64,000 nt of DNA from Candidatus Binatia bacterium (lineage in GTDB: Bacteria; Desulfobacterota; Binatia; HRBIN30; BPIQ01). How positions within the stretch are numbered: the stretch's first letter is position 1; each line of letters opens with the position of its first letter. Where the stretch lies: contig BPIQ01000003.1 in the NCBI GenBank assembly GCA_026004195.1, forward strand, positions 434,001 to 498,000. Reading direction: 5' to 3'. Position numbers and translations under genes: made by a program. This document shows, in pieces, positions 15,067 to 29,952 of the stretch. The notes under the pieces are model-generated. The model saw nothing but the letters and a program-made list of their open reading frames with translations, was not told the origin of the DNA and made no database searches.

Positions 15067-15741
15067 GGTTAGTCAGCGTCGGACGCGCAGGCCCACCGCC
15101 GGGGCCGGGCCGGAGCGTCACGTTCCGTCTTGGGCGCCGGAAGGCGGCGCGTGGCTGCACCCGCGGGGTCGCATCCTCGACGGCACGCCGACTCCCGCGT
15201 AACATCGCGCCGCGCGATTGCGTCGGATTTGTTCGTGCGAGGCTCGGCGGCCCTCCGATTGCGTGCCGGGGGCGGACGGACGTGCCCCGCATGAACACGG
15301 CCACGACAGAGCGTGGCCCTCCGATTCCCCCACGCGAAACGGAGGCCGCGTACGGGCGTTTTCCGTCGCGTCCGCGACGAACGACCTTGCCAGGCGCAAA
15401 CGCGTCCCACCCGGAGGGACGCGCTCCGTCGCGTCCGGGGCGGGCGGGGGAATCGACGCGACGGTTCGCATCCAGGGATCGGCGGTTGCGGCAAAACGCG
15501 GTGGGCCATCCCGCCGTGACGCGCTCCGTCGCGTCCGGGGGCCGCGCGTTTGAATGTCCCCGTGACCTTTGCAATGCCGCGCGGCGACCGCCGGGTCGAC
15601 GCGGCCCCGCCCGGAGGGACGCGCTCCGTCGCGTCCGAGGTGGCGCGGGGGGGCGCGGCACGCACGAACAAGGACCCGACAGAGCGGGCCCTCCGATGAT
15701 CGCGGCCAGGTCGTACCGCGTTTGCAAATGGGCGCTTCCGT
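15067..15741. repeat. Hairpin repeat cluster B
   Basis: Perfect hairpins lie at 15299-15318 (GGCCACG/CGTGGCC), 15417-15436 and 15617-15636 (GGACGCG/CGCGTCC). Degenerate copies are near 15517-15536 and at 15672 (GGACCCG left arm, one base missing in the right arm). The stretch 15290-15480 is an inverted copy of the large repeat unit of cluster C (18603-18770), including the segment that contains TACGGGCGTTTTCCGTCGCG. No gene is seen between pyrF and the oxidoreductase. Confidence 0.8.
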
Positions 15742-18499: not shown

Positions 18500-18500
18500 C

Positions 18501-19472
18501 GGACGCGACGGAGCGCGTCCCTCCGGCACGGGTCCGTGTTCGCATTTTCCCCGTTCCCCTCACCCCTCCGGGACGCGACGGAGCGCGTCCCTCCGCGTGG
18601 TCGCGTTCGCGCCTGGCAACGTTCGTCGCCGACGCGACGGAAAACGCCCGTACGCGGCCTCCGTTTCGCGTGGGGGAATCGGAGGGCCACGCTCTGTCGT
18701 GGCCGTGGTCATCGACGCCGCAACCGCCGATCCCTGGATGCGAACCGTCGCGTCGATTCCCCCGCCCTCCGGGACGCGACGGAGCGCGTCCCTCCGGGTG
18801 GCCGCGTTCGCGCCTGGCAACGTTCGTCGCCGACGCGACGGAAAACGCCCGTACGCGGCCTCCGTTTCGCGTGGGGGAATCGGAGGGCCACGCTCTGTCG
18901 TGGCCGTGGTCATCGACGCCGCAACCGCCGATCCCTGGATGCGAACCGTCGCGTCGATTCCCCCGCCCCCCGGGACGCGACGGAGCGCGTCCCTCCGGCC
19001 GGGTTCGCCGATGCCGCGGACGTCGATCTTCGGGCGCAACCGGCGAACCCAATACGGCCGCCTCGTTTGCCCCTCCGCCCTCGGGACGCGACGGAGCGCG
19101 TCCCTCCGCGTGGCCGCGCGTCATTGCAAACGCGACGGTACCGCCGCCTCCCGGGCGCGATCGGAGGGCCACGCTCTGTCGTGGCCGTGGTCATCGACGC
19201 CGCAACCGCCGATCCCTGGATGCGAACCGTCGCGTCGATTCCCCCGCCCCCCGGGACGCGACGGAGCGCGTCCCTCCGCGTGGGACGCGTTCGCGCCTGG
19301 CAACGTTCGTCGCCGACGCGACGGAAAACGCCCGTACGCGGCCTCCGTTTCGCGTGGGGGAATCGGAGGGCCACGCTCTGTCGTGGCCGTGGTCATCGAC
19401 GCCGCAACCGCCGATCCCTGGATGCCGTCGCGTCGATTCCCCCGCCCGCCCCGGACGCGACGGAGCGCGTCC
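18501..19472. repeat. Hairpin repeat cluster C with large tandem units
   Basis: GGACGCG-arm hairpins at 18501-18520, 18571-18590, 18772-18791, 18973-18992, 19084-19103, 19254-19273 and 19453-19472 alternate with GGCCACG-arm hairpins at 18685-18704, 18886-18905, 19167-19186 and 19369-19388. A unit of roughly 200 bp starting at TTCGCGCCTGGCAACGTTCG occurs near 18608, 18809 and 19290 almost unchanged, with a partial copy around 19160-19250. No protein-coding gene is accepted here although long chance frames cross it on both strands. Confidence 0.9.
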
Positions 19473-19503
19473 CTCCGGTCGCGCGCGGGCGGGTCCGGCC
19501 CCG

Positions 19504-20532
19504 TCACCCCGAAAGCCGCTCGATCACGGCGTCGGCGAACTCCTCGGTGCCGAGCGTCCCGCCGAGGTCGGGGGTTTTCTTCCCCTCGCGGAGCGCCCGG
19601 TCGTAGGCGGCCTTGATGCGGCGGGCCGTCTCGGCGCACTCCGCATCGCTTCGCGATTCGGCCAGGTGGTTCAGCATCATGACGGCCGACATCAGCAGCG
19701 CGAGCGGGTTGGCGATCCCCTTCCCGGCGATGTTGGGCGCCGAGCCGTGGACGGCCTCGAAGACGGCGTGGCTCTCGCCCAGGTTCGCGCCCGGAACGAC
19801 GCCGAGCCCGCCCACGAGCCCGGCGCAGAGGTCGCTCACGACGTCGCCGTAGAGGTTCTCGAGGAGCAGCACGTCGAACTGCCCCGGGTCCTGCACGAGC
19901 CTCATGCAGCCCGCGTCGATGATGACTTCCTCGTACGCGACCTGCGGGTACTCGCGCTCGTGGATCTCGCGGGCGCAGCGCAGAAAGAGGCCGTCGGTGA
20001 GCTTCATGATGTTGGCCTTGTGGAAGACCGTGACCTTGCGGCGCCCGCGCTGCACGGCGTAGCGGAACGCCCAGCGCGCGATGCGGAGACACGCGGGCCG
20101 CGTCGCCACTTTGAGCGAGATGACGACGTCCTCGGTCACCTGGTTTTCCGCGCCGCTGTAGAGGCCCTCCGTGTTCTCGCGGACGATGACCAGGTCGACG
20201 TTGCCGAAGCGTGTGGGGACCCCTTCGAGCGTGCGCACGGGGCGAACGGCGGCGTAGAGGTTGAGGCGCTTCCGGAGCTGCACGTTGACCGAGGTGAAGC
20301 CCTCGCCCACGGGAGTGGTGCAGGGTCCCTTGAGCGCCACGCCGTGCCGCTCGATGGCCTCGAGAGTCTCCGCCGGAAGGACGTCGAGCCCCGCCTCGAG
20401 CGCCGAAAGCCCGGCCTTCCTTTCCACCCAGTCGATGGGCGCCCGGGCGGCCGCGAGCACGCGCACGACGGCGGCCGTCACCTCGGGGCCGATGCCGTCG
20501 CCGGGGATCAGGACGGCCGTGTGGCGGGCCAT
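19504..20532 (-). CDS. NAD-dependent isocitrate/isopropylmalate-type dehydrogenase
   Basis: 342 residues from ATG 20532. It starts TAVLIPGDGIGPEVTAA. Substrate-binding features follow: GEGFTSVNVQLRKRLNLYAA, VRENTEGLYSG, the conserved Tyr/Lys region, and NLYGDVVSDLCAGLVGG (metal-binding aspartates). The cofactor loop is HGSAPNIAGKGIANP. The S-x-N-x-x-x-R-K pattern and ENTEGLYSG favour NAD-isocitrate dehydrogenase (mitochondrial IDH3-like) over LeuB. It would oxidise isocitrate to 2-oxoglutarate in the TCA cycle. It is followed after 50 bases of non-coding DNA by hairpin cluster C, and lies 28 bp downstream of the YbhB-type gene in the same direction. Confidence 0.88.
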   Translation of the reverse strand: MARHTAVLIPGDGIGPEVTAAVVRVLAAARAPIDWVERKAGLSALEAGLDVLPAETLEAIERHGVALKGPCTTPVGEGFTSVNVQLRKRLNLYAAVRPVRTLEGVPTRFGNVDLVIVRENTEGLYSGAENQVTEDVVISLKVATRPACLRIARWAFRYAVQRGRRKVTVFHKANIMKLTDGLFLRCAREIHEREYPQVAYEEVIIDAGCMRLVQDPGQFDVLLLENLYGDVVSDLCAGLVGGLGVVPGANLGESHAVFEAVHGSAPNIAGKGIANPLALLMSAVMMLNHLAESRSDAECAETARRIKAAYDRALREGKKTPDLGGTLGTEEFADAVIERLSG

Positions 20533-21187: not shown

Positions 21188-21544
21188 CGGCCTACCTCCT
21201 CCGTCGTTCTCCCAGTCCGGGCGCGTTCTGGCCGTGCCGCGCCCGGCGGCACCCCTGCAACATGGGGAGGGTTCGGGGGTGTGTCAACGGGCGGGGGCGG
21301 GGGCCGAGCGGGGAAGAAGATGGTGCCTCCGGGTCATTACAACCGGGCCCTTTTCGATTTTTTTTGGCTTTACATGTTACCGGAACACAGTCGCCGCGTT
21401 CCGAAGAAGTGTCGCAAAAACAGGCGTTTACGCACCGACTTGTCGGCGTTCGGTGCTTGGCATCGATTCTCTAGGACTAGTCTCGGAGTCGTTGACTCCT
21501 CGGTTCCGACCTTGCTAGGCGAGCCTCCCAGGGAGGGAGCTGAA
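21188..21544. other. Divergent intergenic region upstream of padR
   Basis: 357 bases between the divergently transcribed YbhB gene and the PadR gene. AT-richer than its surroundings around 21340-21400, including a T8 tract and TTTACATGTTACC, which could hold the padR promoter or an operator (PadR sites often contain ATGT/ACAT), but no clear inverted repeat can be defended. A GGGAGGGAGC ribosome site lies just upstream of the padR ATG. Confidence 0.4.
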
Positions 21545-22186
21545 ATGTTCCGCTACACGCTTTTGGGTCTTTTGCGTGCTTTGGGGCCGCAACACGGCTA
21601 CGCTCTGATTCGCGAGTACGCGAAGCGATCGGGCCTGGAACCGAGCTCGGGGAACTTCTACCGGGAGCTCCAGCGGCTTTCCGCCGAAAAGCTCGTTCGC
21701 CCTCTCGGTCGCCGCTCGGACGGCGATCCCAGACGTCTTCCCTACGAGATCACGCCCGAGGGGGAGGCAGAGCTGGAGCACTGGCTCGCGCACTACCCGA
21801 ACTTTTCGAGTGTCTACGACGACGACATGACGATCCGGGTCCTCCTGATGCCCGAGTTATCCCGTGAGGTCGTCGACCGCATCATCGAACGCTGGCACGA
21901 CGAGCTCTGGGTGAACGGGAAACTGATCGAGCGCGACTACGAAAATTCGCTCCTCGCGAGAAAGAACACGGCCACCGAAGGTTTCGACCCCTTGCCTCTT
22001 CTCTCCTCGCGCCGCCGGAAACACATCGCGGCGGACATGGAGTTCGTCGAGGAGCTGAAGGCCGCCTACCGAGAATGGGTCGAAAAACGCGGTGCTCGTC
22101 CTTCGCCGGAGGCGAAGGTGCGAGAGCAAGAAGCACCGTTGAGAAAACCATCGCTCTCGCCGAAGACCCGGCGTTCCAAGAAATAA
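21545..22186 (+). CDS. PadR-family transcriptional regulator
   Basis: 213 residues from ATG 21545, preceded by GGGAGGGAGC. The N-terminal winged helix reads YTLLGLLRALGPQHGYALIR, then SSGNFYRELQRLSAEKLVRP and the beta wing PYEITPEGEAELEHWL, the standard PadR layout. The C-terminal half (about 100-190) is a helical dimerisation arm. PadR proteins are repressors that often bind a drug or phenolic ligand and control an adjacent exporter. Here the ABC exporter genes start 43 bp downstream on the same strand, so it is likely the local regulator of that operon. Confidence 0.88.
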   Translation: MFRYTLLGLLRALGPQHGYALIREYAKRSGLEPSSGNFYRELQRLSAEKLVRPLGRRSDGDPRRLPYEITPEGEAELEHWLAHYPNFSSVYDDDMTIRVLLMPELSREVVDRIIERWHDELWVNGKLIERDYENSLLARKNTATEGFDPLPLLSSRRRKHIAADMEFVEELKAAYREWVEKRGARPSPEAKVREQEAPLRKPSLSPKTRRSKK

Positions 22187-22228: not shown

Positions 22229-24809
22229 ATGAGCCGACTCCTCGCCGCGCTGTCGTTCCGGATGGCGTACCGCCACTTCCGCGCGGATTTCGGGCGTTTG
22301 GCATTGAGCGTGGTGGCGGTGGGTCTGGGGGTTGGGTTGGTGGTGGGGTTTTTGGTGATGAACGGGGCGGTGATGGGGTCGTTTTTGGGGGTGGTGGACG
22401 GGATGGTGGGGAGAGCGGAGCTTACGGTGAGGGGGAGCGAAGGGGTGACGTTCGGGGAGGAGGTGGTGGAGGCGGTCAGGGGGGTGGAAGGGGTGGAGGT
22501 GGCGGTGCCGCTGGTGCGGGCGGTGACGTTTTTGGATGACGGGAGCGGGGAGGTGCTGACGGTCCACGGTGTGGACCTGGGTTCGGAGAGCGAGGTGCGG
22601 GTGTACTACCGGGGGGACGGGAAGGGGGTGGTGGAGGACTGGGTGGAGTTTTTGAGTCAGGAGGACTCGGTGGTGCTGGGGGAGGAGTACGCGCGGGAGA
22701 AGGGGATTGCGGTAGGGGATCGGGTGGAGCTGGTGACGCCGCGGGGTGTGGAGGGGTTCGTGGTGCGGGGGCTGGTGGGAGGGGGAGAGGGGCTGGTGCG
22801 AGCGCTACGGGGGCGGCTTGTGGTGATGGATCTCTGGGCGGCGGAGAGGGCGTTTACGAGCGAGGGACAGATCAACCAGATCGACGTGGTGGTGAGGGAC
22901 GGGGAGAGCGTGGAGGCGGTCAAGGGGAGGATCGAGGGTGTGGTGCCGGAGGGGCTTCGGGTGGAGGAGCCCGTGGTACGCAAGGAGGTGATCCGGCGGA
23001 CGGTGGGCGGGTTTCAGGCGATGCTGGTGGGGTTCAGTTTTCTGGCGGTGGTGGCGGGTTTTGTGGTGTCGCTGAGTCGGCTCGGGGCGGTGTTCGAGGG
23101 GAGGATGTGGGAGGTGGGACTTCTGAGGGCCGTGGGGGTGAGGAGGCGGATGGTGGTGGTGGAGCTGATGAAGGAAGGGGTTTTGGTGGGAGTTCTGGGG
23201 ACGGTGCTCGGGTGGGTGGTGGGAGCGGGAGTGGCGAGTGTGGGGCTTCCGTATCTGGCGCGGACGACGGCGATAGCGTTTCGGCTTCCGGTGCCGGAGG
23301 CGGAGGTGAGCTTCGGTGTGTGGTCGTTCGTGGTGGGAGGGCTGGTGGGTGTGGTGGCGGCGGTGGCGGCTGCGTGGGCGGCTGCGCGGAGGGTAGCGGG
23401 GGCGAACGTGGTGGGAGTGCTCAGGACGAGGGGGCGGGAGTGGGTGGAGTGGGAAGGCGAAGGGAGGAGACTGGCACTCGGGTGGAGCGGAGCGATTGCG
23501 CTCGGGGTGGTGGGGCTTCTGGTACTGGAGAGGGTGACGGGGCAGGCTTGGATAGGGCACGGGACGACGGCGCTGGTGGCGGTGTGGGCGGGGGTGAGTG
23601 CGGGGCCGCTGGTGAGGGTGCTGGGCGGGTGGGTGGTGAAGGTGTGGGAGCGGGCTTTCGGTGTGGTGGGATGGGTAGCTGCGGGGGGATTGGTGTGGAG
23701 GCCGCGCCGCTCGGCGCTCACGGTGGGGACGCTGGGGATCGGGCTCGGGTTCGTGCTGCTTTTGGGGATGCTCGGCTGGAGCTTCGAGCGAACGCTGGTC
23801 GAGCAGCTCGCGGGACGCTACCGGGCCGACTCTGATCGTGTCCTCGGCGGTCAACGTCGGGGGATACCGCGAAGCCCCGCTCGACGAGAAGATCCTCGAG
23901 GACCTCCGCGCCGTACCGGGGGTCGCCGTAGTGGCGGGTAACCAGGCGAGAGACGTTGCGTCGGAGAAATCGGCGGTAACTCTCAGTGCGTACGACACGG
24001 CTTACCTGGAGGACCCCCGCATTGCATTCGTGCAGGTGAGTCACAATGGCTCTCCTGCTTCCACTCTAGGCGGGACTCGTGTTTTGGCTTCACGAGCCCT
24101 GACTTACGACTGGAACATTGCCCCCGGCGATACCGTGGTTCTCGAGACGGCGCGCGCAAACCTCCCCTTCTCGGTCGTCGGTATTGCGGAAAACGAGCCC
24201 GAACCGGCACTCGTCATCCACCGCGACACGTACCGGGAGCTCTGGAACGATCCGACGATCTGGTTTGCGCACGTGGCGCTCGAGCCCGGCACCGATCTCG
24301 AAGAAGCCCGCCGGGAGATCCTGCGGCGGCTGGGAAGAAAGTACCGCCTGCGGGTGCGCACGCGCGGGGAGCTCGTCGAGTACTTCGCCGGACAGGCACG
24401 GCAGGCCTTCAGTCTCCAGTACGTGCTCGAGGTGATGGTTCTGGTGCTGGTGCTGGTGGGGATCGGGGACACGCTGGCGAGCGGTGTGGTGGAGAGGACA
24501 CGCGAGCTCGGGATGCTGCGGGCGGTGGGGATGAGCCGGAGGCAGCTTTTCGGGATGGTGACGCTCGAGGGGCTGGCGATCGGCTCTCTGGGGGTGGTGC
24601 TGGCGGTGGTGGCCGGCGTGGGTCTCGGGGTTTTCTGGGTGGAGGAGCAGTTTCCGCGGGTGATGGGCTGGAAGCTCGATCTGCACGTGCCGTGGCGGGT
24701 GGTGGGAGGGATTGCGGTGGTGACGATGGCGCTCTGCCTTCTGGGCTCGCTTCTTCCGGCGCTGCGCGCCGCCCGGCTTTCCGTCCCCGAGGCGCTCAGA
24801 AACGAATGA
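22229..24809 (+). CDS. MacB/LolC-like ABC exporter permease, copy 1, one frameshift
   Basis: Two FtsX-like halves. The first (22229 to about 23820) has an N-terminal transmembrane helix, a periplasmic part, three TM helices (MLVGFSFLAVVAGFVVSLSR; EVGLLRAVGVRRRMVVVELM), then a second set ending LLLGMLGWSFERTLVEQLAG. At about 23830 one extra T in CCGACTCTGATC shifts the frame. The correct product continues with SSAVNVGGYREAPLDEKILE through a second periplasmic domain and a final FtsX block with ELGMLRAVGMSRRQLFGMVT, TGA at 24809. The locus is 2581 nt (net +1), about 860 residues. The 10-TM double-permease layout is typical of lipid or peptide exporters acting with a MacB/LolD-like ATPase, which follows at once. 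TM-coding parts use G-ending codons far more than the neighbours. Confidence 0.75.
22277..23817 (+). repeat. Long direct repeat, copy 1 (permease first half)
   Basis: This 1541-bp stretch recurs at 25671-27211 with the same length and, by eye, only two base differences (GAAGGCGAAGGG versus GAAGGCGAAAGG, and CTGGTACTG versus CTGGTGCTG). The identity begins inside codon 17 of the permease and ends abruptly at CGGGACG. Confidence 0.9.
24281..24804 (+). repeat. Direct repeat of permease C-terminal part, copy 1
   Basis: About 524 bp recurring at 27703-28226 with very few changes (for example GTCGAG versus GTGGAG, CAGGCC versus CAAGCC). Between this and the first long repeat the two permease genes are unlike at the base level. 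Confidence 0.85.
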
Positions 24810-24832
24810 CGATGTTTCCGGAGTGAGAAGCC

Positions 24833-25591
24833 ATGAGCGCACGAACCCAACATCGAAGGAACGGAAACGGTCTCGCCGTCCGGGTCGAGGAGGTGATGAA
24901 GCGCTACCGGGCCGGCCGACATGTCGTCTATGCGCTCTACGACCTGAGCCTCGAGGTCGGCGTCGGGGAGTTTCTCTCGATCATGGGGCCGAGCGGATGC
25001 GGGAAGACGACGCTGCTTCACCTGATGGGTGGTCTCGATACACCCGACCGGGGTCGGGTGTTTCTCGGGGGAAGAGACCTGGCCACGATGACGGACGACG
25101 AGCGAAGCGAGTTGAGGCTCCGGCAAATCGGCTTCGTCTTCCAGAGCTACAACCTGGTTCCGAGCTTCACCGTGGAAGAGAACGTGCTTCTTCCCCTCCG
25201 GTTCGCCGGCACTAAGTGGTCCGAGGCTCGGGACCGCGCGCACGCGATGCTCTGGCAGGTGGGAATTTCCCCGGACGCCTATCGCCGAAGGCCCGGAGAG
25301 CTCTCTGGAGGCGAGCAGCAACGGGTTGCAATTGCCCGCGCGCTCGTGACCGAACCACGTCTGCTTCTTGCCGACGAGCCGACGGGAAACCTGGACTCCC
25401 GTACCGGGCAGACGATTCTCGAGCTTTTGCGGACGCTGAACGCCAAGCGCGGCGTTACCGTCGTCATGGTCACGCACAACGCCTACGCCGCGACCTACGG
25501 GCACCGGACGATCGAGCTCAAAGACGGCCAGATCGTCCACGAGGCGGAAACTCCACCCCAAAAGGACCCCCCCGCGGCGGGAGAATCCTGA
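24833..25591 (+). CDS. ABC exporter ATP-binding protein (MacB/LolD type)
   Basis: 252 residues from ATG 24833. Complete nucleotide-binding domain: A-loop [15 protein letters not shown], Walker [12 protein letters not shown] (about 53-63), Q-loop [12 protein letters not shown], signature [15 protein letters not shown], Walker [17 protein letters not shown] and the H-loop VTHN. The Q-loop SYNL and PTGNLD are typical of the MacB/LolD/FtsE-like group that pairs with FtsX-type permeases. It lies 23 bp after permease copy 1 and 31 bp before copy 2, so it would energise one or both. A non-conserved 15-residue tail extends past the domain. Confidence 0.93.
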
Positions 25592-25670
25592 CCGCAGCGC
25601 GGGAAGGCCGCGGCCGGAATCCGTGACGAGCCTCGGACTTTTTCTCTCGCTTCGCTTGCCGACGGCTCGT

Positions 25671-27211
25671 TTCCGCGCGGATTTCGGGCGTTTGGCATTG
25701 AGCGTGGTGGCGGTGGGTCTGGGGGTTGGGTTGGTGGTGGGGTTTTTGGTGATGAACGGGGCGGTGATGGGGTCGTTTTTGGGGGTGGTGGACGGGATGG
25801 TGGGGAGAGCGGAGCTTACGGTGAGGGGGAGCGAAGGGGTGACGTTCGGGGAGGAGGTGGTGGAGGCGGTCAGGGGGGTGGAAGGGGTGGAGGTGGCGGT
25901 GCCGCTGGTGCGGGCGGTGACGTTTTTGGATGACGGGAGCGGGGAGGTGCTGACGGTCCACGGTGTGGACCTGGGTTCGGAGAGCGAGGTGCGGGTGTAC
26001 TACCGGGGGGACGGGAAGGGGGTGGTGGAGGACTGGGTGGAGTTTTTGAGTCAGGAGGACTCGGTGGTGCTGGGGGAGGAGTACGCGCGGGAGAAGGGGA
26101 TTGCGGTAGGGGATCGGGTGGAGCTGGTGACGCCGCGGGGTGTGGAGGGGTTCGTGGTGCGGGGGCTGGTGGGAGGGGGAGAGGGGCTGGTGCGAGCGCT
26201 ACGGGGGCGGCTTGTGGTGATGGATCTCTGGGCGGCGGAGAGGGCGTTTACGAGCGAGGGACAGATCAACCAGATCGACGTGGTGGTGAGGGACGGGGAG
26301 AGCGTGGAGGCGGTCAAGGGGAGGATCGAGGGTGTGGTGCCGGAGGGGCTTCGGGTGGAGGAGCCCGTGGTACGCAAGGAGGTGATCCGGCGGACGGTGG
26401 GCGGGTTTCAGGCGATGCTGGTGGGGTTCAGTTTTCTGGCGGTGGTGGCGGGTTTTGTGGTGTCGCTGAGTCGGCTCGGGGCGGTGTTCGAGGGGAGGAT
26501 GTGGGAGGTGGGACTTCTGAGGGCCGTGGGGGTGAGGAGGCGGATGGTGGTGGTGGAGCTGATGAAGGAAGGGGTTTTGGTGGGAGTTCTGGGGACGGTG
26601 CTCGGGTGGGTGGTGGGAGCGGGAGTGGCGAGTGTGGGGCTTCCGTATCTGGCGCGGACGACGGCGATAGCGTTTCGGCTTCCGGTGCCGGAGGCGGAGG
26701 TGAGCTTCGGTGTGTGGTCGTTCGTGGTGGGAGGGCTGGTGGGTGTGGTGGCGGCGGTGGCGGCTGCGTGGGCGGCTGCGCGGAGGGTAGCGGGGGCGAA
26801 CGTGGTGGGAGTGCTCAGGACGAGGGGGCGGGAGTGGGTGGAGTGGGAAGGCGAAAGGAGGAGACTGGCACTCGGGTGGAGCGGAGCGATTGCGCTCGGG
26901 GTGGTGGGGCTTCTGGTGCTGGAGAGGGTGACGGGGCAGGCTTGGATAGGGCACGGGACGACGGCGCTGGTGGCGGTGTGGGCGGGGGTGAGTGCGGGGC
27001 CGCTGGTGAGGGTGCTGGGCGGGTGGGTGGTGAAGGTGTGGGAGCGGGCTTTCGGTGTGGTGGGATGGGTAGCTGCGGGGGGATTGGTGTGGAGGCCGCG
27101 CCGCTCGGCGCTCACGGTGGGGACGCTGGGGATCGGGCTCGGGTTCGTGCTGCTTTTGGGGATGCTCGGCTGGAGCTTCGAGCGAACGCTGGTCGAGCAG
27201 CTCGCGGGACG
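25671..27211 (+). repeat. Long direct repeat, copy 2 (permease first half)
   Basis: Partner of 22277-23817: 1541 bp with two differences seen by eye. Such identity over a gene half, with unrelated DNA at both edges, points to recent gene conversion, recent duplication or collapse during assembly. Confidence 0.9.
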
Positions 27212-27702
27212 TCTCACCGCGGCCTTGCTGATCGTGTCCTCGGCGTTCACGACGTCGCGGGTTACCGCGAAGCCCCGCTCGACTGACGAGCTCCTCGAGG
27301 CACCTGCGCGGCCGTTCCGTGGGTGACTCACGTGATCGGTGAGCAGCAAACGGGACGTCGGAGACCGTCGGATGGTAGAGTGCTGACTGGCTTAACTGCG
27401 TTTGACGCCCACTGCTTCTCGGATCACGAGGGCTTTGCGATTGGGACCTGGGCAATGGGCACGCGTGAGTTGGCTTGAGCGGGTAGCCTCTGGTGAGGCG
27501 GCGATAGTCTCCCAGTCGTTTGCAAGCGTTTTTGGTCGTGAGACGCCGGTGCGCCTGAGGGCTGGGGCAGTTTCTTTGGCATTGCCAGTCGTAGGTATTA
27601 CGCGGGGACAACCCGTGAGTGCTCGTCATCCTACCGTCGACACGATATACCGGGAGCTCTGGCACGATCCGCCGTTCTGCTACTTGGCGCACGTAGGCGC
27701 TG

Positions 27703-28226
27703 CGAGCCCGGCACCGATCTCGAAGAAGCCCGCCGGGAGATCCTGCGGCGGCTGGGAAGAAAGTACCGCCTGCGGGTGCGCACGCGCGGGGAGCTCGTGG
27801 AGTACTTCGCCGGACAGGCACGGCAAGCCTTCAGTCTCCAGTACGTGCTCGAGGTGATGGTTCTGGTGCTGGTGCTGGTGGGGATCGGGGACACGCTGGC
27901 GAGCGGTGTGGTGGAGAGGACACGCGAGCTCGGGATGCTGCGGGCGGTGGGGATGAGCCGGAGGCAGCTTTTCGGGATGGTGACGCTCGAGGGGCTGGCG
28001 ATCGGCTCTCTGGGGGTGGTGCTGGCGGTGGTGGCCGGCGTGGGTCTCGGGGTTTTCTGGGTGGAGGAGCAGTTTCCGCGGGTGATGGGCTGGAAGCTCG
28101 ATCTGCACGTGCCGTGGCGGGTGGTGGGAGGGATTGCGGTGGTGACGATGGCGCTCTGCCTTCTGGGCTCGCTTCTTCCGGCGCTGCGCGCCGCCCGGCT
28201 TTCCGTCCCCGAGGCGCTCAGAAACG
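27703..28226 (+). repeat. Direct repeat of permease C-terminal part, copy 2
   Basis: Partner of 24281-24804; encodes the last FtsX domain of permease copy 2. It begins inside the codon for the residue before E-P-G-T-D-L-E-E. Confidence 0.85.
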
Positions 28227-28554
28227 AGTGAGCTCCTCCGGCGGCCGTGTTTCGCCAGACGCTCTCTGTCCTCCCGAAAGCTCGCACCCAGCCTGCTCCG
28301 GCAAGCCGTGAATCGGGGAATCGGCGGAGCACGTTTTGTGCCAAGGCGCACCCTGGCGGTGCCGCACGAAGAGCGCATGTGGTTGACCTTGGCGTCGTGC
28401 TCACGTCGACGAAGCGCTCGTTGTGTCGACCTCCGGACACTCGAGCGCCGCTGCCCGGCAACGGCGCTGTGAGTTGACCACGAGGGCCCTCCGATTTGCG
28501 GATTCGAAGCGCCGTGTGGGGAATGCATCGGTTGCCGTCGCGTGCCATCCGGAG

Positions 28555-28747
28555 GGACGCGCTCCGTCGCGTCCGGGGAGGCGGGGACGCAGGCCAACAA
28601 CGTGGCCCTGCGAGCGCAGGGGGCGTCGGACGTCGCCTCATGATCGCCGGTCCCGTTCGCGGACACGGCCATCCGGAGGGACGCGCTCCGTCGCGTCCGG
28701 GAGGCGGGGACGGACGCGCCGGGCATGAACACGGACCCGACAGAGCT
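28555..28747. repeat. Hairpin repeat cluster D
   Basis: The 28232-28931 gap has no gene. It holds hairpins at 28555-28574 and 28679-28698 (GGACGCG arms) and a half hairpin at 28734-28747: GGACCCG plus loop ACAGAG, with the right arm replaced by other DNA where the MITE-like element starts. 28232-28550 shows nothing recognisable. Confidence 0.75.
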
Positions 28748-28931: not shown

Positions 28932-29952
28932 ATGGCAAAGTCGCTCAACGTCGCGATGTGGGGCAGGGCCGTGCGGGTGATTCCGCGCGTGAGCCGCGAG
29001 GAGTGGAGTGCGCTCGACGTGATCTCGCGCTGGCTCATCGCCACGCGTTCGGCGGCGCTCGTCATGACGCTCAACTCGGCCGTCGCGGCGGGCCTTCTTG
29101 CCTTCCGCGACGCCCGTTTCGACTTCGTCCTATGGTTTCTCGTCACGGCGGGCCTTCTTCTCGCGCACGCGACGAACAATCTCGTGAACGACCTGACCGA
29201 CCACCTGAAAGGAGTCGACCGCGACAACTACTTCCGCGCGCAGTACGGCCCGCAGCCCCTCGAACACGGGCTCATGACGCGAGGCGAGATGCTCGTCTAC
29301 ATCGCCGTGACGGGCCTCCTCGCGCTCGGGGCGGGTCTCGCCCTCGTGGCCGTGCGTGGCGCCCCGATTCTTTTTCTTCTGGCCGCAGGAGCCTTTTTCG
29401 TCCTTTTTTACACGTGGCCCCTCAAGTACATCGGGCTCGGCGAGCTTGCGGTCCTCGTCGTGTGGGGCCCGCTCATGGTGGGCGGCGGTTACTACGCGAT
29501 CACGGGCACGGTGACGCCCGAGGTGCTCCTGGCGAGCCTTCCGCTCGCGCTCGCCGCGACGACGGTGCTTCTCGGAAAGCATACGGACAAACTCGAGGCC
29601 GACCGCCAGAAGGGCATCCGCACGCTCCCCGTCCTGCTCGGCGAGAAGGGGGCTCGCGCGCTCATGCTCGTGTGCCTTACCCTGCCCTACGCGATCGTCC
29701 TGGGGCTCGTCGTCGCACGCGCTTTCTCGCCGCTCGTTCTCGTCACCGTGTTCGCCGTGCCCTGGTATCTCCGCGCCGTCCGCGTTCTCCGCGCTCCGCG
29801 GCCCTGCAGAACGCCCGCCGCAATACCCGGCCGAAGCCTGGCCCCTCTGGTTCGTCGCCTTCGCCTTCCAGCACACGCGCCGCTTCGGGTTTCTCTTTCT
29901 CCTGGGGCTCGTGGCCGACGTCGTCGTGCACCGGGCGTTCGGCGTTTTCTGA
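28932..29952 (+). CDS. UbiA/MenA-family prenyltransferase, one frameshift
   Basis: Start ATG 28932 (MAKSLNVAMWGRAVRV). Polytopic, with the two Asp-rich motifs of UbiA enzymes: NNLVNDLTDHLKGVDRDN (N-D-x-x-D, about 79-96) and KHTDKLEADRQKGIRTLP (D-x-x-x-D, about 218-231). It joins a polyprenyl diphosphate to an aromatic or other acceptor in the membrane, as in menaquinone synthesis. Near 29805 the frame shifts by one base; the true end reads PPQYPAEAWPLWFVAFAFQH and finishes HRAFGVF with TGA at 29950-29952. The locus is 1021 nt (net +1), about 340 residues. The acceptor is not readable; the MenA-like spacing is suggestive only. Confidence 0.75.

Follow-up and report, generated by a model that had tools for sequence, protein, structure and literature searches.

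Enrichment of G over C on the coding strand of near-identical duplicates, including an exporter permease pair, in a Candidatus Binatia genome

A 64,000-nt stretch of the Candidatus Binatia bacterium assembly GCA_026004195.1 (contig BPIQ01000003.1, positions 434,001-498,000; here called the window) carries two MacB/FtsX-type permease genes, copies A and B, on either side of a single ATPase gene. The permeases share two near-identical tracts rich in G-ending codons, a property that recurs in other duplicated genes of this genome. The locus is read here not as twin exporters with swappable modules, but as part of a genome in which lasting duplication accompanies G-rich codons. The features are given below in window coordinates; decimal values in brackets are G/(G+C) at four-fold degenerate third codon positions, the measure used throughout.

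21491-22186, +: PadR-family regulator gene, start approximate, 5' of the exporter genes (PF03551, E 1.1e-12)
22229-24809, +: permease copy A (MacB_PCD-FtsX-MacB_PCD-FtsX), single frame change at ~23.83 kb (PF12704 and PF02687 in both halves)
22277-23817, +: shared tract 1 of copy A, G-biased, covering the first half with its membrane and periplasmic parts (0.92; alignment, composition)
23818-24284, +: second periplasmic domain of copy A, unshared, ordinary codon use (0.47; alignment, composition)
24285-24809, +: shared tract 2 of copy A, G-biased, covering the final membrane part (0.70; alignment, composition)
24833-25591, +: ABC ATPase of LolD/MacB type, ordinary codon use (0.45; PF00005, E 3.9e-35)
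25623-28231, +: permease copy B, with several frame changes that break its second domain (open reading frame list, domain matches, tblastn)
25671-27211, +: shared tract 1 of copy B (alignment with copy A)
27212-27706, +: counterpart domain in copy B, homologous to A's second periplasmic domain, diverged, pieces out of frame (tblastn)
27707-28231, +: shared tract 2 of copy B (alignment with copy A)

The MacB_PCD and FtsX domains, together with the adjoining ATPase, identify the locus as a predicted ABC exporter of the MacB/FtsX type. Permease matches to PF12704 (60.9 and 55.7 bits) and FtsX (56.7-67.5 bits) lie above the cut-offs, the second MacB_PCD of copy A scores slightly below (25.7 versus 27 bits), and the ATPase matches ABC_tran at 121.9 bits. 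Assignment to the lipoprotein-releasing Lol system (LolCDE) was rejected, with the first permease halves at 61-67 versus 362 bits for LolC/E and the intact ATPase at 232 versus 308 bits for LolD (TIGR02211). The permeases resemble exporters with a duplicated permease (ADOP model TIGR03434) in having two MacB_PCD-FtsX units in one permease; scores for that model (57.5 and 45.9 bits, cut-off 622.3) come from broken permease pieces only. The exporter is likely to require the ATPase and one intact permease, and whether copy A is intact in the cell hinges on the reality of its frame change.

A first-pass annotation of this DNA had described permease genes almost the same in the first half and the last part, with a strongly different second periplasmic domain between them, and this description holds. 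Tract 1 spans 1541 nt with 2 mismatches and zero gaps, tract 2 spans 525 nt with 3 mismatches and runs to both stop codons, and the intervening middles (~23818-24284 in A, ~27212-27706 in B) can be aligned only with many gaps. Pieces of the B middle match that of A by tblastn with E values of 4.5e-7 and 1.6e-6 (43% and 31% identity, frames 1 and 3). The first 16 codons of the two genes differ in DNA and, from the translations, encode apparently homologous protein. A frameshift at the module junction had been claimed for both copies. That claim stands for copy A, whose single frame change directly follows the end of tract 1, whereas copy B is damaged further: its first half is in frame 1, its middle matches A in frames 3 and 1, its end is in frame 3, and internal stops are present. 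Base errors in the assembly may well account for these frame changes, since the reading frame also seems to shift toward the end (~29805) of the single-copy UbiA-family prenyltransferase gene at 28932; for copy B, decay is a fair alternative explanation.

The permeases were compared with 15 stretches from 11 relative genomes. The permease is one open frame in 14 of these (854-1130 amino acids, upstream codons counted) and split in the remaining one (G034:C189); 13 of the 15 stretches contain an ATPase match and 8 contain a PadR match. The permease-ATPase-permease order occurs in none of the 15, which sets the present arrangement of two permeases around one ATPase apart from them. Identity to the relatives is 31.7-53.7% in the first half, 25.8-38.2% in the middle and 33.1-63.5% at the end, and the best relative reaches 52-53% at the protein level. 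The copies thus resemble one another, block by block, more than they resemble orthologues, which is the pattern expected of paralogues in concerted evolution, as far as sequence comparison can tell. Gene conversion, as the annotation had suggested, is supported by these two near-identical blocks around diverged DNA, in copies >99% alike. Its further proposal of selection for module diversity is not borne out: there are two copies only, module B is frame-broken, and the middle is the least conserved part in 15 of 15 relatives' stretches, so that ordinary divergence suffices to explain why it differs. The genome search that it had called for, for more permease copies with other modules, returned these two as the only near-identical copies, and cassette- or shufflon-type antigen variation or a module-swapping exporter was rejected on the same grounds of copy number and the broken module B. 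A scan of the genome contigs with the permease as query gave no relative. Two weak exporter paralogues were recorded in the genome, both on contig 1 (C1); one of them (L051, 6630-8243; C1 ~30.6-32.2 kb) is a short permease piece beside an ATPase, and a G-biased transposase copy lies ~3 kb from it.

The annotation had also pointed to G-ending codons in the shared parts unlike the rest, and composition confirms it. Besides the values listed above, the PadR gene stands at 0.47, and the GC skew is 0.56 in tract 1 versus ~0 in middle A, the ATPase and the PadR gene. The bias is not a codon choice that belongs to permeases of this kind, as the relatives' permeases (15, from 11 genomes) give 0.36-0.57 in the first half. 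In a first sample of 320 open reading frames (ORFs) from the same genome, three more outliers appeared, two transposases and one DUF4215 protein; repeats, rather than permeases, were therefore suspected. The survey was extended to 1.64 Mb (45% of the genome) and 1080 ORFs. Their 95th percentile is only 0.56, and the bias of the permease tracts is therefore not attributable to chance. Twelve of the 1080 ORFs exceed 0.70, and all 12 lie within near-identical repeats:

tuf (EF-Tu), both copies: 0.90
permease first halves, both: 0.88-0.89
DUF4215 gene: 0.80
insertion sequence (IS) transposases from two IS families, with three and two copies: 0.74-0.79
pair of adjacent secreted-looking proteins: 0.77

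No single-copy ORF exceeds 0.70 in the 1.64 Mb read. For 11 of the 12, the repeats are 96.6-100% identical within the stretches read; the DUF4215 gene was known as an outlier first, and its duplicate (98% over 2212 nt) was found later by a whole-genome search. ORFs without a repeat (n=1061) have a median of 0.46 and a maximum of 0.64. At least 25% repeat coverage was found for 17 ORFs: 13 sense copies in marked families, two acyl-CoA-synthetase-like ORFs, and two antisense ORFs that were set aside (one opposite an IS, one opposite permease B). The 13 sense copies, at 0.61-0.90, belong to six marked families of unrelated functions, out of eight coding repeat families found. The secreted-looking pair (C1:729750-733593; L126), without a Pfam match, combines a near-identical 748-nt part with different ends and is thus another shared-plus-differing pair.

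The mark follows the repeats closely. With eight stretches combined, G/(G+C) stands at 0.49 within 50 nt of the repeat edge and climbs to 0.83 at 50-100 nt and to 0.85-0.91 further in; the parts of the ORFs outside the repeat are at 0.45-0.64 by gene. The DUF4215 gene provides a control within one ORF, at 0.88 inside the repeat and 0.45 beyond it. Of the 11 amino acids that offer a G-ending codon, 10 use it more often in six marked tracts combined; for Ser, TCG stays at 0.35. The preference also shifts to TTG in Leu, to AGG in Arg and from TCC to AGC/AGT in Ser, and T-ending codons increase where G is not available (Phe TTT 0.21 to 0.42, Ile ATT 0.13 to 0.30). At four-fold sites, the base fractions are A 0.079, C 0.437, G 0.373 and T 0.111 outside repeats and A 0.053, C 0.227, G 0.634 and T 0.086 inside, the latter being diluted by unmarked and antisense ORFs that are counted in. 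Overall, one strand loses C and gains G instead. The coding strand is also the leading strand for the four vertically inherited families (tuf, the secreted-looking 730k pair, the DUF4215 gene and the permeases), judged by a weak regional skew that is weakest at the permeases.

Relatives in the same class support the association. A tuf match at threshold was obtained in 98 of 145 class genomes, four with two copies and 94 with one, and composition was read in all four of the former and 43 of the latter. All four two-copy genomes have a biased tuf (0.75-0.90), versus 4 of 43 one-copy genomes (0.68-0.88; the other 39 at 0.31-0.56), a difference between two assembled copies and one with a Fisher p of 0.0004. 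The four biased one-copy genomes are drafts of ~160-470 contigs, in which identical tuf copies may have been merged. Genes next to duplicated tuf, named from sequence, lie at 0.39-0.51: rpoB and rpoC in G007, G061 and G031, as well as fusA in G007. The EF-Tu pair of the surveyed genome is 100% alike, versus 87% protein identity to orthologues, a pattern of concerted evolution as in the permeases. Between two congeners, tuf differs at 48 four-fold sites, 17 of them by C/G and 4 by C/T changes; rpoB and rpoC together differ at 400, of which 63 are C/G changes (Fisher p 0.002 for C/G) and 144 are C/T changes, a contrast that is partly due to the different composition of tuf. In G127, the single tuf is at 0.49, and IS copies 96-98% alike reach 0.72-0.85 in open frames. 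A 400-kb portion of G007 without near-identical repeats holds no ORF above 0.65 among 267. MutS is present in all eight genomes checked, whether biased or not.

By the usual view, gene conversion makes duplicates in bacteria uniform and, if it has a bias, favors G and C equally. GC-biased gene conversion likewise ties a composition change to recombination, and four-fold G+C is slightly raised here (0.81 to 0.86); however, it raises G and C equally, whereas here G rises from 0.37 to 0.63 and C falls from 0.44 to 0.23 (with the diluted figure inside repeats). As a strand-symmetric rise of both bases it was therefore rejected.

Concerted evolution itself has precedents. In Salmonella, tufA and tufB evolve in concert by gene conversion: the identity of the copies stops at the ends of the coding sequence, initiation is effectively possible anywhere in the gene within its limits, and repair efficiency differs among mismatches, according to the passages available (PMC5485169). 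Those passages describe no base-composition effect, and the word "biased" is absent from the text of the paper. Long-lasting concerted evolution in prokaryotes likewise keeps paralogues similar over long times, in an account whose main text never uses the words skew, biased, strand or GC content (PMC6053082). A literature search found no report of a strand-wise G bias of this kind, most subscription papers being outside its reach.

On balance, we lean toward the reading that gene conversion both keeps the duplicates alike and enriches one of their strands in G. The two permease genes would then be old adjacent paralogues of a MacB/FtsX-type exporter, in which repeated conversion holds both membrane parts near-identical, while the second periplasmic domain, judged by its sequence, may be too diverged to recombine and so would escape. 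Homogenization would leave a second trace, a drift of synonymous sites to G and a purge of C on the coding, and probably leading, strand. One possible route is unequal mismatch repair in heteroduplex DNA with non-equivalent strands: G/C alleles yield G:G or C:C mismatches, which repair enzymes handle differently. The interior maximum of the bias fits conversion that starts anywhere in a gene and is limited by the gene's bounds. More tentatively, and with less confidence, strand-aware biased conversion could operate in this class, and perhaps in scattered others, rewriting long-lived near-identical coding duplicates toward G, so that the skew would mark duplicates even where an assembly has merged them.

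Several observations weigh against this reading. No conversion event was seen, and conversion as the cause of the G shift is inferred. The survey covers less than half of the genome, and two of its repeat families are unmarked. One is the acyl-CoA-synthetase-like pair, named from sequence, at C3:271516 and on the 6.3-kb contig C6 (L093), with values of 0.43 and 0.42; its repeat (C3:271160-273738) is 98% identical over 2.6 kb, with intact 612-amino-acid ORFs one amino acid apart. Positions 1-3508 of C6 match nowhere else in the genome, and the C6 copy may be a genuine, young duplicate or may sit on a stray contig from a strain variant. That this repeat is ribosomal RNA was rejected, as Rfam finds no RNA on C6 and both copies carry an intact ORF. 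The second unmarked family, a near-tandem repeat of 520 nt at C1:81255/82057, is 97.9% alike and stands at 0.41 in the ORF as called. The edges are not entirely sharp: pooled G/(G+C) is 0.59-0.62 in the first 150 nt outside repeats, and the C1:730k/732k pair is raised (0.62-0.64) also beyond the counted repeat. In the marked tracts, His moves toward C (CAC 0.81 to 0.91) and Thr ACA goes up. All vertically inherited cases are on the inferred leading strand, which makes transcription and replication inseparable. IS copies 99.8-100% alike in G031, G061, G126 and G007 are at ~0.42-0.58, with one short frame at 0.65, so that marked near-identical IS copies occur in one of five relatives' genomes; the unmarked ones could be young, if the mark needs time.

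Beyond the class, 80 named tuf loci from many phyla range from 0.26 to 0.94, with neighbors mostly at 0.4-0.5. For 50 of these, selected as 25 with high and 25 with lower bias, the number of tuf copies was determined, and the outcome also speaks against the conversion reading: values above 0.6 are found in 10 of 27 two-copy genomes versus 16 of 23 with one good copy, the one-copy genomes being mostly draft metagenome-assembled genomes (MAGs) that may have merged copies, three of them with tuf at a contig end. Strongly G-biased tuf genes (0.86-0.94, neighbors 0.40-0.49) were seen in L249 (10001-11197, an Aquificota MAG), L220, L233 and L268, each with a single assembled copy. In the chromosome of Nitrosomonas sp. 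MAG_42 (L252, 10001-11188), the single tuf is at 0.85 and neighboring ORFs are also at 0.65, a possible counterexample. The association of duplicates with G is thus clear, though not exceptionless, in this genome and supported in the class; this wider sample does not support it as a rule for bacteria in general.

The main rival to biased conversion is repeat-directed mutation, in which recombination- or transcription-linked damage and error-prone synthesis replace C by G on the exposed coding strand. The partial replacement of C by T in Phe and Ile and the loss of first-position C in Leu and Arg do resemble a loss of C itself, and the interior excess with loss at the edges is predicted equally by mutation and by conversion. 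However, four-fold T and A both drop inside repeats, unlike what plain C deamination would give, and we consider this mechanism unlikely, if worth keeping in view. Cause and effect could also be reversed, with G/T-rich coding strands being recombinogenic, so that only such duplicates stay identical and the rest diverge; R-loops, G-quadruplexes and a pairing preference of RecA could be the sources of such recombinogenicity. Duplicates in G007 that have diverged (87%, 83% and 76% identical), within 400 kb without an ORF above 0.65, are what this reversal would predict. It is nevertheless improbable in our judgment, as the bias starts and stops with the repeat inside the single DUF4215 ORF, one-copy tuf orthologues are mostly unbiased (39 of 43), and an unbiased 98% pair exists.

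Selection of codons for expression in EF-Tu and transposases, or the foreign codon use of acquired genes, could in principle yield similar values. The tuf gene is highly expressed, and some ORFs of this genome that look like ribosomal proteins reach ~0.58-0.63 (names from sequence). Such an origin is very unlikely, however, given that rpoB and rpoC beside tuf in three relatives are at 0.39-0.51, that transposases and a permease are unexpected among highly expressed genes, and that the bias stops inside ORFs at the repeat edges; the last point also led us to reject a foreign origin of the G-biased tracts. An assembly artefact, with repeats collapsed or wrongly resolved, is the kind of error suggested by the frame changes in both permease copies and, apparently, in the nearby single-copy gene, and a bad consensus could exaggerate the likeness of the copies and break module B. 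Errors do not, though, create synonymous G-ending codons that preserve the protein. The permease copies differ in their 5' ends and flanks, the mark is also present on unrelated duplicates, and the same bias recurs in other genomes whose tuf copies were assembled separately, which leaves very little room for this explanation of the bias.

If the conversion reading is true, a recombination or repair step that distinguishes the two strands would be needed, and the history of conversion would become legible from one genome. Codon-usage and phylogenetic signals would be distorted in EF-Tu, a widely used marker, and G skew could flag merged duplicates in draft genomes.

The window also contains dispersed intergenic repeats at 15401-15648, 18500-19504 and 28539-28710, with a GC-rich, palindrome-like core in both orientations; the second of these includes a 201-nt tandem unit at 18564-19448. 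Similar intergenic repeats may recur genome-wide, as the end of contig C6 has numerous short matches, some of them inside the window.

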